Source: Actinopolymorpha alba DSM 45243 (GTDB taxonomy: Bacteria; Actinomycetota; Actinomycetes; Propionibacteriales; Actinopolymorphaceae). From it: DNA of 64,000 nucleotides. The notes beneath the pieces are model-generated. The model was not told the origin of the DNA. It was given only the letters and a program-made list of their open reading frames with translations, and did not search any database. Below, in pieces: positions 1,092-54,229 of this stretch; within the stretch, counting starts at the first letter, position 1; each line of letters starts with the position of its first letter. A program made the position numbers and the translations under genes. Location of the stretch: positions 62,436 to 126,435 of the forward strand of contig NZ_KB892790.1 in NCBI RefSeq assembly GCF_000373925.1, in the 5' to 3' direction.

Positions 1092-2210
1092 GTGGAGATG
1101 CAAACGGGGGAACGTGGCCGAATTGCTGCGCTCGATGGGTTGCGCGGTCTGTGCGCGCTCATTGTGGTCATTACTCATACGGCGCTACTCAACCCGCAAC
1201 TGGCGGCCGGCTACCTGCCCAACCCTCCGGCCAGCCATGGGTGGGCCTGGTGGATGATCCACACACCGCTGCACCTGTTCTGGACCGGCGGCGATGCGGT
1301 CCACGTGTTCTTCGTGCTGTCTGGGTTCGTGCTCACCCTGCCGTTCGTCAGCGCCACTCCGTCATGGCGCGCCTACTACCCACGTCGGCTGGTGCGGCTC
1401 TACGTACCGGTGTGGGGGGCACTGGTGTTTGCGCTGCTCGTCATGGCAATGATTCCTCGCGTCCATCAGACGGAGTCGCGGTGGGTGAACGTCCAGGCCG
1501 TACACCCCACCTGGGCCAGCATGCTCAAAGACGCCACCTTGACGAGGCCCACCGCCCTGGACTCGCCGCTGTGGTCCCTTAAATGGGAGGTGGTGTTCTC
1601 GCTGCTGCTCCCCGCCTACCTAGCGGTAGCCAAGGGCCTGAGACGGGTCGGCTTGTTCGGCCTGGTGGTGCCGGCCGTTCTGGTCCTGGCGGGCACAGTG
1701 ACTGGTTCGGCGGCCCTGCTGTACCTACCGATGTTCGCGGTCGGGGTACTGATGGCCACCAACCTGCACTCCCTGCGCGCAATGGCCGCCAGGCTCGACA
1801 GGTGGTGGCCACTGGTCGCAGTGGCCGGCGGTGGAATTCTGGTGGGCCGCTGGTGGCTCCCGTTGGGCGTTGCCGACGTCCTGATGTCCGTGGTTAGCGC
1901 CGGTGTCGTGGTGCTCTTGTTCCTCGCCTGGGCACCCGCGCGGACGGTCGGGGAGCACCGGGTGTCTCAATGGGTCGGGCGCCGGTCGTTCAGCCTCTAC
2001 CTCATACACGTGCCGATTGTGTTGGCGGCGGTGCGGTTGCCCGGCTGGGGTCCGGCAGTCGCCTTCCCGGCGTCCCTGCTGGTGGCTGCTGTGTTCTACC
2101 GGTTGGTCGAAAGACCGGCACTGCGGTTCGCCAACCATCTCGGGCGCCGCATCGGCGCGAACCGGCTCACCGCGCCCGCTGCGGTGCCCGAGACCGTAAG
2201 CCGGCGATAA
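1092..2210 (+). CDS. Acyltransferase 3 family membrane protein (OafA/YrhL-like)
   Basis: This integral membrane protein of about 372 residues belongs to the family that transfers acyl groups, often acetyl, from acyl-CoA or a membrane donor to sugars and other surface polymers. The N-terminus RIAALDGLRGLCALIVVITH is the typical acyltransferase-3 opening with its conserved arginine and membrane histidine. VFFVLSGFVLTLPF and SFSLYLIHVPIV are further family signatures. I count about ten hydrophobic segments. GTG 1092 is chosen because GGGGGAGG sits 8 bases upstream; the in-frame GTG at 1083 touches that site and the ATG at 1098 is slightly far. It stands alone, so the acylated substrate cannot be inferred. 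It may modify cell-wall polysaccharide or a glycoside. Confidence 0.85.
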   Translation: MEMQTGERGRIAALDGLRGLCALIVVITHTALLNPQLAAGYLPNPPASHGWAWWMIHTPLHLFWTGGDAVHVFFVLSGFVLTLPFVSATPSWRAYYPRRLVRLYVPVWGALVFALLVMAMIPRVHQTESRWVNVQAVHPTWASMLKDATLTRPTALDSPLWSLKWEVVFSLLLPAYLAVAKGLRRVGLFGLVVPAVLVLAGTVTGSAALLYLPMFAVGVLMATNLHSLRAMAARLDRWWPLVAVAGGGILVGRWWLPLGVADVLMSVVSAGVVVLLFLAWAPARTVGEHRVSQWVGRRSFSLYLIHVPIVLAAVRLPGWGPAVAFPASLLVAAVFYRLVERPALRFANHLGRRIGANRLTAPAAVPETVSRR

Positions 2211-2269
2211 TGCCGCGAAACTCTTGGCTCCCTTTACTACGCAAGCCGCGAGGACGAGTTGGACCTATG

Positions 2270-2938
2270 TCAATGGTTCATGAGGCGGCTGGTGAAGCCG
2301 GCGGCGCACAGCCGGTTGTACGCATCGAGTACCTCGTCCGGCATGTCCTGGCTGATGGCAAGGCCGCGCTTGGGAAGCTCGAAGATGCGTTGTGTGTCGC
2401 CCACGATGCGGTCGACGACCCGCTTGGTGTCACCGATGGCGTTGAGGTAGTCAGCCAGCGGAAGTTCCTGGGAGGCGCATTGGACGTTGACGGTGGGCCA
2501 GAGCTTCCGGAACATCGCCCACGATCGACGAAGCTGGTATGGCCGCGAGATCAGGGTGACTAGGTCAACAGACAACCCGTGTGCTTCGAGGAGCTTCCGC
2601 GAGTACTCGATGTTCTGCGCCGTGTCGACGGCCTGGGGCTCAACGATGATCGCCTCGGCGGGGACACCAAGGGTGATGGCATGCTCGCGGTATTGGATGG
2701 CCTCCCCGCGTGGGAACCGGTCGATGGTTGTCGGGCTGTTGGCTCCGGTGAAGACGATCAGCGGGAAGATCCCCCGGTGGTAGAGGTCCGCCGCGCAGGT
2801 GGCGACTCCGAGGTCATGGCTTCCGAGGCCGATGGCGACCGACGAGGGGCGCGGGTCCTCGCGTACTTGGTGATAGTCCCAAAGGGTCTGCAGGTCGGCG
2901 TAGAGATCGTCAGTCAGGACAGGCGTCGCGGTCGTCAT
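2270..2938 (-). CDS. YdcF/DUF218-family protein
   Basis: The product has 222 residues. ATG 2938 is preceded by AGAGGAGCC at good spacing, so the longer upstream reading starting at 3025 is unlikely. The fold is the DUF218 (SanA/YdcF) Rossmann-like domain: GLGSHDLGVATCAADLY near the start, IVFTGAN, a middle GEAIQYREHAITLGVPAEAI segment and VTLISRPYQLRRS. Members of this family bind nucleotides or S-adenosylmethionine or act in envelope integrity, and their chemistry is mostly undefined. There is no signal peptide or membrane segment here, so this one is cytoplasmic. The gene is convergent with the acyltransferase and downstream of a GntR remnant. Confidence 0.75.
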   Translation of the reverse strand: MTTATPVLTDDLYADLQTLWDYHQVREDPRPSSVAIGLGSHDLGVATCAADLYHRGIFPLIVFTGANSPTTIDRFPRGEAIQYREHAITLGVPAEAIIVEPQAVDTAQNIEYSRKLLEAHGLSVDLVTLISRPYQLRRSWAMFRKLWPTVNVQCASQELPLADYLNAIGDTKRVVDRIVGDTQRIFELPKRGLAISQDMPDEVLDAYNRLCAAGFTSRLMNH

Positions 2939-2975
2939 GATGGCTCCTCTACCCGGGTTGCGGACCGCGTGCATG

Positions 2976-3146
2976 CTAGTCGGGAATCTTGAACGTGTAC
3001 GACCAGGCGAAGCGGCTCGCCGCATTCACCTCGCGCGCGAACTCGACGACCCGCCCCTCTGCGGTCCGGGTCCATCTACGCAGGACCATCACGGGCTCGC
3101 CGGCGGGAAGCTCAAGGACGTCTATCTCGTCGGATCCTCCTGGACT
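2976..3146 (-). pseudogene. Remnant of a GntR-family regulator (UTRA domain end)
   Basis: The leftward frame ends with ELPAGEPVMVLRRWTRT, then EGRVVEFAREVNAASRF and a short WSYTF tail. This is the usual C-terminal end of the UTRA ligand-binding domain of HutC-type GntR regulators. No N-terminal winged helix precedes it in any nearby frame, so about 180 residues are missing. It lies just upstream of the YdcF-like gene. I infer a decayed regulator left behind by rearrangement in this accessory region. Confidence 0.55.
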
Positions 3147-3377
3147 CAGATGTGCAGCTTGGCACGATCTGCGCCTTCCCTGCCATTCGATGCCCCCCGG
3201 CGCACTCTCCCTCCCCATGCGCGCGCCTTATACAGCGTCAGGAAATGCGATGTTGGCGTGTTGTGGACAAAGAGCGTGTGGTGGCAACTCTTCACAGGGT
3301 GGCCGGCGAAGTCGCTCAACTCGTCGCCGAACGTGACGGCGTAGCCGACGGCGCCGCACCTCATCGGGGAGGTTTCG

Positions 3378-23339: not shown

Positions 23340-24029
23340 TCAGCTCGACGATGGTGGCTGCGGTGGCAGGGCGCCGCCGCCCATGGTCCACCAGCTCGTC
23401 TGTCTCCGTGCACCGCGCCAGCTCAGGCTGATGTGGATGTGGTCCTTGTGCGGATTGGAGGTGCCTGTGTACGGCTGCCAGCCCAGCCACGGCCGGTAGG
23501 CGCGCCACATCCTGGCGTTCCAGATGACGTACATGACGCCGAGCCGGCGTGCCATCGCATTCCCGTTTCCGTGCCTGTCGGGGCGCAGTAGCCAGTAGAG
23601 GAAGTCGTTCGCGTTCTTGCGGCTGGTGTAAGACGTCGCGTCGAAGGCGATATCGAGGGCGCGCCCTTCCTTGTGCTCGGTCACCCGAGCCGTACAGGAC
23701 GTGACGATTCCCCACCAGCGGTTGCCGTACGTCTTGATGATGAGGTTCTTGATATCCACCACGCCTGGCTTCGCGGTGGGACTACAGGTGGTGCCGCCGA
23801 CGTAGAGCGCGTGCGCGTCAATGGACGCAGGGAACGACGGTGTGCGAGGCATTTTTCGCAACCATGCCGCCGTGGATGTCGTACGCTCCGTTGACGCGTG
23901 TGCCGCTGATCCCGCGAATGCGGTTGGAAGTGCCAGCCCCAGCGCGGGGGCGAGTATGGCGGGCACCAGGAAGTCGCGCCGGGATATTTGTCTTCGTGGT
24001 CTGTCGCCCTTATCTGGAAGGAGTTCCAT
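23340..24029 (-). CDS. Tat-exported M15-like peptidase-domain protein
   Basis: The product has 229 residues. The N-terminus has a twin-arginine signal (ISRRDFLVP) with a hydrophobic core and an AHA-type cleavage site. The mature part ends in a VanY/M15-like fold seen in actinomycete cell-wall proteins: VTEHKEGRALDIAF supplies His and Asp, and NPHKDHIHISLSW gives the second metal His pair. It probably cuts or binds peptidoglycan cross-links outside the cell. It is convergent with the DUF4032 gene. The last residues are Pro/Ser rich. Confidence 0.78.
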   Translation of the reverse strand: MELLPDKGDRPRRQISRRDFLVPAILAPALGLALPTAFAGSAAHASTERTTSTAAWLRKMPRTPSFPASIDAHALYVGGTTCSPTAKPGVVDIKNLIIKTYGNRWWGIVTSCTARVTEHKEGRALDIAFDATSYTSRKNANDFLYWLLRPDRHGNGNAMARRLGVMYVIWNARMWRAYRPWLGWQPYTGTSNPHKDHIHISLSWRGARRQTSWWTMGGGALPPQPPSSS

Positions 24030-24216
24030 TCCGACAGCCTGACCCGCCTACGGCGGTCGCCCGCAGATACCGGAAGACCTGCGGTTGGAGGTAAACGACC
24101 TAGCCGCGGAGGTCCTTCGCGGAGATTGTGAAGACTTCCGGGTGCTCTAACCCCCCAAAGTTTTCACGGTCTTAGGGGAGATAACGCAGAGTCGTCGCCA
24201 ACGAGAAACCGGGCTT

Positions 24217-24346
24217 CTGTCTCACATTGTTTACACCCTTTGGTGAACCTCACGCGGCAATTCCCCACCTCACTGGGCGAATTTGCCTTGCCCGGTGAGA
24301 ACTTACCCCGCCTCGCACCTCAGAAGGTGTACACAATGTGAGACAG
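24217..24346. repeat. Inverted repeat pair, 21-bp arms 88 bases apart
   Basis: Left arm 24217-24237 (CTGTCTCACATTGTTTACACC) and right arm 24326-24346 are reverse complements at 20 of 21 positions. Between them is a second, imperfect dyad (CTCACTGGGC with GCCCGGTGAG). The nested symmetry could mark a small non-autonomous transposon, a structured RNA, or a pair of operators. No gene is inside. Confidence 0.7.
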
Positions 24347-24586
24347 CACCCGCCTTGCCTCACATCGCGGCCAGACCTGAAGGTGTCGCAGCGCGAAACC
24401 TTCAGTAGCTGCCCAGTTCCCGCGCAGAAGTGGGCGTCGCGACGGGTTCTGGATAGGCCTCATTGAGACCTATTCAAACCCTCACACCGACAGGTCGCGG
24501 CATCGTGAGGACAGCGAGCCAACTTGGCGGAGGCGTCTCGGCCTCTATGCCGAAACTCCTCCGCCAACTCATCGCAACCTCGGTGA

Positions 24587-24665
24587 GCGATTTCTGTAAG
24601 TTGATCATGGTCCGGTTCCGCTCAGATCCAACAACCCTGTCCGGCTCCAGAGGTTTTGAGTAAGC
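24587..24665. repeat. Dispersed repeat, second copy at 53891
   Basis: This stretch and 53891-53976 share GCGATTTCTG then AAGTTGATCATGGTCCGG with one or two changes, and go on to match in a GATCCA-CAACC-CTCCGG-GCCAGAG pattern. Both copies are intergenic and near gene ends. The copy here lacks the inverted partner arm present at 53847. Confidence 0.7.
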
Positions 24666-24758
24666 CACATTGTGTACAGCGAAAGCATCCAGATTCTGGA
24701 CGGCAGGGCTCATCGCGGAGGAGGTTTTGGAGGAGCCTCAATCCTGCGCGGAGATCGC

Positions 24759-25940
24759 TCAGCGTTCGCCCGGTGGCGAGCCGGCGAGGGCACGCCCGAT
24801 GACGAGGCGCTGGATCTGGTTGGTGCCTTCGAAAATCTGCAGGACCTTCGCCTCCCGCATGTAGCGCTCGACCGGGAAGTCGCGGGTGTAGCCGTAGCCG
24901 CCAAGGACCTGCACGGCGTCGGTCGTCACCTTCATCGCGGCGTCGGTGGCGACCAGCTTCGCGATCGCCGCCTCGGTGGTGAAGGGCAGACCTCTGTCGC
25001 GCCGGCGGGCCGCGTCGAGGTACGTCGACCGGGCCGTCTGGACGGCGGCGGCCATGTCGGCCAGCAGGAAGGACAACCCCTGGAAGTCGATGATCGACTG
25101 CCCGAACTGCGTCCGCTCCTTCGCGTACGTCACCGCGGCGTCAAGGGCGGCTTGCGCCAGGCCGACCGCGCACGCGGCGATGCCGAGCCGGCCGGAATCC
25201 AGTGCCGACAGGGCGATGCGGAGCCCGGCTCCCTCCGCACCGATCCGCCGCTCGGCGGGGACGCGGACGCCATCCCAGTGCACCTGCGTCGTCGTGGACG
25301 CGGTGAGCCCCATCTTGTGCTCGGGCAGGCCGAACGACAGGCCCGGCGTCGTGGCGTCGACGAGGAAGCAGCTGATCCCGTGGGTCCGGTCGGGTGAGCT
25401 ACGCGCGAACAGCGTGTAGAAATCGGCTTCACCGCCGTGGGTCGTCCACGCCTTCGTGCCGTCGATGACGTACGCCGGACCCTGCAACTCCTCGGCAGTG
25501 TCGCTGAGCATCGCCCGGGTCGTCATCGCCGCGACGTCCGAACCCGCCTGGGGCTCGGACAGGCAGTAGGCACCGAGCAGGTCACCCGCGAGGAGGTGAG
25601 CGAACCAGCGGTCCCGCTGGGCATCCGTGCCGTACACCGCCAGCGGGTAGCAGGCGAGCGACTGGACGGAGACGCCGACGGCCACGCTGAGCCATGCCGA
25701 GGCGAGTTCCTCCAACATCTGCAGGTAGACCTCGTACGGCTGGGCGCCCCCGCCGTACTCCTCCGGATAGGGCAGCGACAGCAGCCCCGACCGGCCGAGC
25801 AACCGGAACGTCTCGCGCGGAAACTGGGCGGCTTCCTCAACCTGCGCAGCTTTCGGAGCGAGTTCGTCCGCCGCGATCTCGCGGACCAGCGCGAGCAGGT
25901 CGTAGGCCTCCGCGCTCGGAAGTAGACGTTCGACTGTCAT
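24759..25940 (-). CDS. Acyl-CoA dehydrogenase
   Basis: The product has 393 residues. This FAD enzyme oxidises acyl-CoA to 2-enoyl-CoA in fatty- or branched-chain acid breakdown. Family signatures are present: AYCLSEPQAGSDVAAM (flavin binding), KAWTTHGGEADFYTLFAR, RTQFGQSIIDFQGLSFLLAD and GGYGYTRDFPVERYMREAK. The catalytic glutamate is in LQIFEGTNQIQ. Chain-length preference cannot be read. It stands in a leftward group with rlmB and cysS but with a gap of about 130 bases, so it may have its own promoter. Confidence 0.92.
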   Translation of the reverse strand: MTVERLLPSAEAYDLLALVREIAADELAPKAAQVEEAAQFPRETFRLLGRSGLLSLPYPEEYGGGAQPYEVYLQMLEELASAWLSVAVGVSVQSLACYPLAVYGTDAQRDRWFAHLLAGDLLGAYCLSEPQAGSDVAAMTTRAMLSDTAEELQGPAYVIDGTKAWTTHGGEADFYTLFARSSPDRTHGISCFLVDATTPGLSFGLPEHKMGLTASTTTQVHWDGVRVPAERRIGAEGAGLRIALSALDSGRLGIAACAVGLAQAALDAAVTYAKERTQFGQSIIDFQGLSFLLADMAAAVQTARSTYLDAARRRDRGLPFTTEAAIAKLVATDAAMKVTTDAVQVLGGYGYTRDFPVERYMREAKVLQIFEGTNQIQRLVIGRALAGSPPGER

Positions 25941-36437: not shown

Positions 36438-36496
36438 TGAGCCAGATGCGAGACGAGGCGACGTCACGCGCCAGTTCCCCTTGGTTGGGGACCCAA

Positions 36497-36581
36497 ATGA
36501 TCACGTATACGTGGTCATTACCTGCTTCGCATGGTGTCGGTGCCATGCAAGGCATGCATTGACCACGTATACGTGATCATT
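36497..36581. repeat. Inverted repeat of two GATCACGTATACGTGATC-type palindromes
   Basis: Two near-identical palindromes (36497-36519 and 36560-36581) are placed as inverted copies 40 bases apart. Each has the core CACGTATACGTG flanked by AATGATCA or a close variant. It lies after the HAAS gene (+) and before the end of the DUF2207 gene (-), that is, between convergent genes. A related palindrome is at 44299. It could work as a bidirectional terminator or be a mobile palindromic unit. Confidence 0.75.
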
Positions 36582-44233: not shown

Positions 44234-44326
44234 GGGAACGATCACGTTTGCTTGGCAAATCCCCACGATGCAAGCTCAATTCACGACGCATCGTGGGGAA
44301 TGATCACGTAAACGTGATCATTCCCC
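44234..44326. repeat. Compound palindrome between convergent genes
   Basis: A perfect dyad (GGGGAATGATCACGTA with its mirror, 44295-44326) adjoins an 11-bp stem-loop (CCCCACGATGC 44261-44271 with GCATCGTGGGG 44288-44298), and a further GATCACGTTTG half-copy is at 44240. It lies between the lipoprotein (+) and regX3 (-) ends. Shape and core match the element at 36497, so these are probably the same family and may stop transcription from both sides. Confidence 0.75.
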
Positions 44327-53341: not shown

Positions 53342-53851
53342 GTGACCGAACGCTCGCACGAACCCTCGCTCGACCCATCGCTTCCGGCGGACCCCGAGGC
53401 GCTGCTGGCGCTCGGCCGCGAACTCCTCGTCGCCCAGCCGTTCAGCGTGCTTGTCGGCGCGAGCCTGGATGCGTTCAAACCGGGGTACGCCGAACTCTCG
53501 CTGCCGCTGACGCCCCAGCTGCTCCAGCAGTTCGGGCAGGCGCACGGCGGTGTCCTGAGCTACCTTGCCGACAACGCGATGACGTTCGCCGGCGGCTCCG
53601 TCCTGGGACCGTCGGTGGTGACGGCGGGATACACGATCAACTACCTGCGTCCCGCCTTCGGCCCGCGCCTGGTCGCCACCGCCTATGTGGTGAACGCCGG
53701 ACAGCGGCTCGCGGTCACCCGCTGCGAGATCCTTTCGCTCGGCGAAGAGCGGGAGGTCGAATGCGCTGTCGCCCAGGGCACGATCGCCACCCTCAACGGC
53801 CGGCCGGAGCGGGGTTCAGCATCAGTTCGCGATCCTCGAGCTGGTTCATGA
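53342..53851 (+). CDS. PaaI-family thioesterase
   Basis: The product has 169 residues from GTG 53342. The hot-dog fold is shown by [20 protein letters not shown], then [20 protein letters not shown], where the aspartate in ADNAMT is the usual catalytic acidic residue, and [19 protein letters not shown]. It should hydrolyse acyl-CoA esters. The end of the gene lies inside a 26-bp inverted repeat, so the last residues and the hairpin overlap. Confidence 0.85.
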
Positions 53852-53914
53852 TCAACTTGCAGAAATCGCCCAGACTTTGCGCGAAACGTGGGCGATTTCT
53901 GCAAGTTGATCATG
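53847..53914. repeat. Perfect 26-bp inverted repeat across the thioesterase stop
   Basis: Arms 53847-53872 and 53889-53914 are exact reverse complements with a 16-base loop. The core CATGATCAACTTGCAGAAAT is the same unit as at 24587-24665. The left arm includes the thioesterase stop codon. Long stems right at a gene end suggest an RNA hairpin that ends or protects the transcript. Confidence 0.85.
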
Positions 53915-53976
53915 GTCCGGTTCCCCGCTCAACCAGATCCAGCAACCTCTCCGGCGCCAGAGATCTTGAATAGGCC
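53891..53976. repeat. Dispersed repeat, second copy of the 24587 element
   Basis: After the hairpin arm this stretch goes on to match 24587-24665: the TTGATCATGGTCCGGTTCC part is identical, followed by the same spaced pattern of GATCCA, CAACC, CTCCGG and CCAGAG. The rest of the spacer to 54229 has one weak open frame (from ATG 54005) that I do not call a gene. Confidence 0.7.
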
Positions 53977-54229
53977 CACCATCCGCAGCGGCAAGGTGTA
54001 CGCCATGTGGGGCATCGACGGCCTGACGCGCCAATTCCTCACCATGCAAGGCGAATCGGGCGCGCTTCGTGGGGAGATGCCGCGGGAGGTCGCACCCGTC
54101 TCGGATGGCGTACACCCGATCGTTCCGGATACTGAGAAGCCGGAGGGCAACCCCGAGTTGCCATAGGAATGTCGGCTAAGAGACCGAGAAACCTCTGGCA
54201 ACTCGGCATGACGGAGACGAGGCGGGGAC

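Follow-up and report, generated by a model that had tools for sequence, protein, structure and literature searches.

The inverted repeat at positions 24218-24345 of the window (the whole 64,000-nucleotide stretch of Actinopolymorpha alba DNA analysed here) is probably one copy of a lineage-specific, non-coding palindromic repeat that spread, much as a REPIN or a MITE does, as non-autonomous mobile DNA, a reading to which we give a probability of roughly two in three. We suggest that this repeat, here called type A, works like a REPIN or MITE, and we do not claim membership of either class for it. Its copy number, near-fixed length, absence at the relatives' locus and intergenic position were observed directly, as were the ends and cores that are common to it and other palindromic elements. 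A trans-acting enzyme would recognize the ends, in duplex form or folded as a single-stranded hairpin, before copying the element into new sites; halves of differing elements may rejoin at the palindrome centre, giving rise to hybrids and mosaics. The data can be explained without a host role for the type A repeat. Among the options raised by a first-pass annotation of this DNA, a miniature transposable element comes closest: it is favoured by dispersed copies, conserved inverted ends and absence at the relatives' locus, whereas a target-site duplication and a partner transposase were not found.

The inverted repeat and its surroundings

The annotated geometry was accurate. The 21-bp arms, with one mismatch and an 88-base spacing, lie at 24217-24237 (CTGTCTCACATTGTTTACACC) and, as the reverse complement, at 24326-24346 (CTGTCTCACATTGTGTACACC), and the second dyad within them is formed by CTCACTGGGC and GCCCGGTGAG at 24269-24278 and 24290-24299. 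The additional copy placed near 24667 is the 13-bp CACATTGTGTACA at 24666-24678 on the forward strand. The interior is indeed free of genes, the nearest being at 23340-24029 and an acyl-CoA dehydrogenase gene at 24759-25940, both on the reverse strand. The repeat itself exceeds the extent first described, with similarity to other copies running from 24203 to 24353 or 24438 (Table 1). The module at 24346-24438 also occurs without a type A element.

Table 1 Positions of repeat elements and their parts within the window
Feature	Position	Strand	Basis or remark
Type A palindromic repeat element, 128 bp	24218-24345	+	34 full-length two-arm copies; alignment A1
Left terminal motif TGTCTCACATTGTTTACACC	24218-24237	+	Pattern search of genome
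Right terminal motif TGTCTCACATTGTGTACACC (reverse complement)	24326-24345	-	Sequence and pattern search of genome
Central dyad, middle of palindrome	24269-24299		Sequence; folds; well conserved across copies in alignment
Left flank common to most copies, belonging to a larger composite repeat	24203-24217	+	Comparison of copies
Right flank module, common to a subset of copies	24346-24438	+	Matches reach 24438 in 10 fetched loci
Separate 52-bp hairpin module (GATTGTGAAGACTT...AAGTTTTCACGGTCTTA)	24123-24174	+	Lies left of type A in other copies, with variable spacing
Second repeat element, ends like GRCCTATTCAAA / TTTGARTARGCC, hairpin 24524-24567 inside	about 24463-24667	+	Copies elsewhere in genome without type A
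86-bp palindromic element with 24-bp self-palindromic ends	36496-36581		One of 26 distinct 86-bp elements
Type C element	53994-54117		Core resembles type A; terminal motif in opposite orientation

A scan of the window for 21-bp inverted arms that differ at no more than one base and are separated by 20-400 bases gave three places, 24217, 36495 and 53846. All three have further copies in the genome, and 60 windows simulated with a first-order Markov model gave no such arms. Folds of 24203-24360 were far more stable than those of shuffled sequences, both as DNA (z = -6.4) and as RNA (z = -7.5). The third place, 53846-53915, is a nearly perfect hairpin (ATGATCAACTTGCAGAAATCGCCC...) that adjoins the type C element and is a member of another repeat family.

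The small gene adjoining the element (23340-24029) had no Pfam match. Among the corresponding stretches of the five congeners, L162 lacked a homologue, L163 contained a match of 48 residues, and L161, L164 and L165 gave two matches each.

Copies within the genome

The genome search for other copies that the first-pass annotation had proposed, run with 24180-24380 as the query, returned 69 matches, many of which are the two strands of one place, as expected for a palindrome. These came to 44 distinct placements, of which four short partial ones were set aside before alignment. Among the 40 distinct places left in the 7.98-Mb genome, 34 carried full-length, two-arm copies, and these make up alignment A1 (two type B pairs, out of 36, were left out). 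Most were of identical length, with 28 of the 34 measuring exactly 128 bp end to end. The 20-bp end TGTCTCACATTGTNTACACC, allowing up to three mismatches, was found at 119 genome sites (61 + 58), and a reversed-pattern control at none; the loci were drawn from 100 of these 119 motif sites, so that a few may be missing. A single-copy chance repeat was ruled out by the genome search and the simulated windows.

Identity among the type A copies was 91-92% in the end motifs and 85% in the interior. Near-identical, recent copies were not found (best pair 97.8%, mean 85%), which we counted against a mobile reading. A larger mosaic of repeats surrounds most copies, leaving it uncertain what the moving unit is. 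No clean empty site was found inside the genome itself, only one deletion derivative (L106).

The assembly is a draft of 127 contigs (95.86% complete). Contigs at seven of the loci (L009, L019, L022, L029, L041, L044 and L102) start or stop no more than a few hundred bases from these repeats, which probably account for many of its contig breaks.

Occurrence in other genomes

Against the 69 matches in its own genome, the type A element had none in any of five congeners. The acyl-CoA dehydrogenase gene and a DUF4032 gene remain close neighbours in all five, and the gap between them is without the element; the exact insertion point is unreadable, since the gap sequences of the congeners are not alignable. 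Allowing two mismatches, the 20-bp end was present in only 3 of the 390 other genomes in a sample of 391 from the order, at one site each, versus 112 sites in its own genome. An exact search for this end (with one free base) in genome_contigs, from which the records of this genome are possibly absent, gave a single match, in an unrelated Oscillochloris MAG; no element surrounds that end and it was taken as chance. Collections of plasmids and phages yielded no match.

Related elements, hybrids and mosaics

The ends and cores of type A reappear in other combinations. In type B, the ends of type A flank a different core; type C has a core similar to that of type A with the terminal motif reversed in orientation. 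A further class has ends that are a 24-bp self-palindrome, AATGAYCACGTNNRCGTGRTCATT, present at about 200 genome sites (198 and 197 by strand), in the window also at 44299-44322, and absent in the five congeners. Inverted doublets of this palindrome were found in 28 rows of the fetched loci, or 26 distinct elements after two duplicate rows were dropped, and all were exactly 86 bp long when 74-99 bp was allowed. Their ends are 94-95% identical and their cores 66%, a comparison that favours the ends, which served as search bait. By a crude rule, six of the cores are like those of types A and C and 20 like that of type B.

Pairing is conserved in the ends of the 86-bp elements, with 94.0% of cells paired in the 24-bp palindrome. 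The ends covary, for example at columns 12/75 (A-U 12, U-A 10), although not every measure lies above the shuffles: the covariation score was 0.126 versus 0.101 in shuffled alignments (1 of 500 shuffles as high), whereas pairs with double changes numbered 7 versus 11.0. Over the first eight positions, the flanks of these elements were more complementary to one another than permuted flanks (105 versus 84.7, p = 0.0014), an excess seen at positions 1-3 and not at 4-12. We take this complementarity as a lead only towards insertion into palindromes.

Among the loci then analysed, a census of arms gave 34 elements with two type A arms, 13 with two type C arms (more when partial arms are included), two with two type B arms and five of the 86-bp type. 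It also revealed hybrids: in 11, a type B arm is joined to an arm of the 24-bp palindrome, and in one with complete arms, or three counting partial arms, a type A arm is joined to a type C arm. On the basis of these hybrids we propose an exchange of halves at the palindrome centre. Nested insertion followed by decay could be the source of part of the pattern.

A tentative reading, which we regard as possible at odds well short of even, is that these are modular mobile palindromes in which the half-element, an end plus half of a core, is the evolving unit. Halves would rejoin at the centre, which would account for the same ends being found on different cores and in hybrids; the elements would prefer palindromes at gene 3' ends, and the enzyme would be other than a RAYT.

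Two further repeats were seen alongside these. At L085-L094, L099 and L101 lie several copies of a repeat whose inverted ends resemble CTAGGGCGTGTCC...GGACACGCCCTAG; it has a single type B arm and a single 24-bp palindrome inside, and looks like a MITE of a different kind. In another genus of the family (L218-L237), a variant of the 24-bp palindrome occurs at 165 sites and is followed by an unrelated palindromic tail.

Search for a transposase and a target-site duplication

The first-pass annotation had also called for a search for target-site duplications, and this came out negative: direct repeats at the ends were no more frequent than chance predicts. For type A, comparison of five flanking bases, most of these flanks being repeats themselves, gave no matching base in 23 of 34 copies and one in 11, similar to mixed controls. 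No flank bases matched in 23 of the 28 rows of 86-bp elements.

A search of the genome with PF01797 gave nine hits. Seven of the eight fetched Y1 loci were typed (L082 was left out, as it has an internal stop), and all seven matched IS200/IS605 tnpA best, five of them over the curated cut-off; none reached the REP-associated (RAYT) cut-off. Two tested neighbours of the Y1 genes were TnpB. IS200/IS605 elements with tnpA beside a TnpB-type gene lie at L077, L078, L080 and L081, where TnpB was called with NCBIfam for L077 and L080 and by eye for L078 and L081. Type A ends, with up to five mismatches, were not found near the Y1 hits (nine, at eight loci), four rve hits or five DDE_Tnp_1 hits; lone matches with six mismatches lie at L078 and L171. 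We also considered a Y1 transposase as a partner through shared DNA beside L079, and rejected it, as that DNA is coding and not repeat; ORF 1990-3153 of this locus reads, by eye, as an ABC transporter ATPase.

These searches bear on a conventional MITE as the explanation: type A would then derive from an insertion sequence by deletion, and a DDE transposase, since lost or hidden in assembly gaps, would have cut at its 20-bp terminal inverted repeats. The size of the element fits this, as do its 20-bp inverted ends, 63 of 68 of which start with TGTC or CGTC. Several contigs terminate in repeats and the parent could therefore be missing from the assembly; since the draft often breaks in these repeats and the families searched were Y1, rve and DDE_Tnp_1, a parent element may have been overlooked. 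We nonetheless consider a conventional MITE unlikely. A target-site duplication was not found, the ends occur on different cores and reversed, and in 68 fetched loci and the window no second end framing a gene was recognized at a distance of 0.2-3 kb, where only neighbouring short elements were seen.

Position relative to genes, and RNA structure

The position of the repeats was assessed with a home-made, codon-based gene caller at score thresholds of 10, 15, 20 and 25, with gaps of at least 60 bp for comparison. No type A copy lay inside a gene at thresholds 15-25, and 1 of 34 did at threshold 10. At threshold 15, the 29 gaps with a type A element (five copies near contig ends fell outside this count) were 12 convergent, 15 tandem and 2 divergent, versus 34 convergent, 118 tandem and 70 divergent among 222 other gaps. 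The divergent class is thus rarer for type A (p = 0.004 at threshold 15, and 0.007, 0.026 and 0.007 at 10, 20 and 25, respectively). Threshold 25 missed the gene at 23340-24029, so the gap around 24218-24345 is truly tandem. For the 86-bp elements, divergent gaps were not depleted (6 of the 25 located outside genes), and 17 of the 19 having an adjacent gene 3' end sit within 62 bp of that end.

Such placement would also be expected of a host gene-end element, a hairpin that shields mRNA 3' ends or stops transcription and was multiplied for its usefulness: both the enrichment in convergent and depletion in divergent gaps and the closeness of the 86-bp relatives to gene 3' ends speak for it. We find it improbable all the same. 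No U-tract follows the type A hairpin, no congener has the element, and type A covariation is lower than in shuffles. REPs are also reported to have a similar position bias in the portion of PMC3733652 drawn on here. As to an intrinsic terminator or promoter at this locus, one terminator-like site in the region versus 0.9 expected is at chance level, and no promoter-like site was found near the element.

A structured RNA, another option initially put forward, found no support. The suggested covariance analysis showed no pairing covariation among type A copies: none of 29 predicted pairs in the 34-copy alignment had a double change, and a hand-made pairing gave compensatory changes in 2 of 47 pairs with a covariation of 0.066 versus 0.076 when shuffled. 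Rfam returned no family, only one sub-threshold chance match (E 0.12). Furthermore, the two arms of an element showed 1.97 differences, versus 1.76 between arms from different elements (36 pairs, two of them type B). Since covariation is lacking and an element's own arms are not more alike, the type A arms are kept as sequence, as would be expected for a recognition site, and nothing points to a conserved RNA structure.

A passive origin, in which hairpins were duplicated through replication template switching and recombination without a dedicated enzyme, would suit the half-element hybrids joined at palindrome centres and the mosaic formed by the modules. It seems very improbable, as the fixed lengths (86 bp in 28 of 28 rows and 128 bp in 28 of 34 copies) and the scatter to unrelated sites would be hard to obtain in this way. 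The proposal that a DNA-binding regulator uses the repeat as a paired operator can be set aside almost entirely: the conserved 20-bp motif does contain the palindrome GTGTACAC, but 34 copies of the element, motif sites across the whole genome, depletion in the divergent gaps where promoters are expected and no promoter-like site close by fit it badly.

Comparison with known repeat systems

As described in the part of Bertels and Rainey (2011, PMC3116915) used here, REPINs are inverted doublets of constant length whose ends are conserved and whose spacer varies but can pair, and they are tied to RAYTs. Type A resembles them in its inverted conserved ends, fixed spacing, less conserved but pairable spacer, extragenic position and many copies, as far as that part describes REPINs, and clusters of unrelated elements with one inserted in another are likewise common to both. 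On the same description, the 86-bp relatives are a close match to the REPIN layout. The REPIN end is a palindrome, as is the 24-bp end of these relatives, whereas the 20-bp end of type A holds only the 8-bp one named above. Judged against that partial account, the differences are that no REP-associated tyrosine transposase was found here, the seven typed Y1 genes being closest to IS200/IS605 tnpA, that type A lacks compensatory changes, and that the ends reappear on different cores and in hybrids.

The portion of Di Nocera et al. (2013, PMC3733652) consulted places REPs near gene 3' ends and between convergent or co-directional genes, some of them inside small palindromes, and describes CGTC REP families that have no dedicated transposase and whose tag varies to TGTC. 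Type A agrees with these GTAG- and CGTC-tagged REPs, so far as described there, in its position and in the tetranucleotides that begin most of its ends, but its tag is not immediately followed by a stem of 8-9 bp with a loop of 4-5 bases. MITEs, in the sections used of a review (PMC10969869), are similarly short, non-coding and dispersed with inverted ends; for type A, neither a target-site duplication nor, among the Y1, rve and DDE_Tnp_1 hits, a parent was found. REPs and REPINs have been described mainly outside actinobacteria in the sources as drawn on here, and the word Actinobacteria is absent from the main text, as available, of PMC3733652 and PMC6006769; nor are Actinobacteria among the phyla named in the consulted portion of PMC3733652. 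Our literature search found nothing on such repeats in actinobacteria in the library covered.

The BIMEs of enterobacteria are intergenic mosaic clusters of several palindromic modules. The mosaic layout seen here is alike, compared by description only, whereas the present elements are longer (86-128 bp), with ends of 20-24 bp.

The proposed exchange of half-elements is the unusual part. High-copy palindromes in an actinobacterium in which no REP-associated transposase was found make spread by another enzyme testable, and in the half-element hybrids, rearrangements at the centres of palindromes are naturally recorded.
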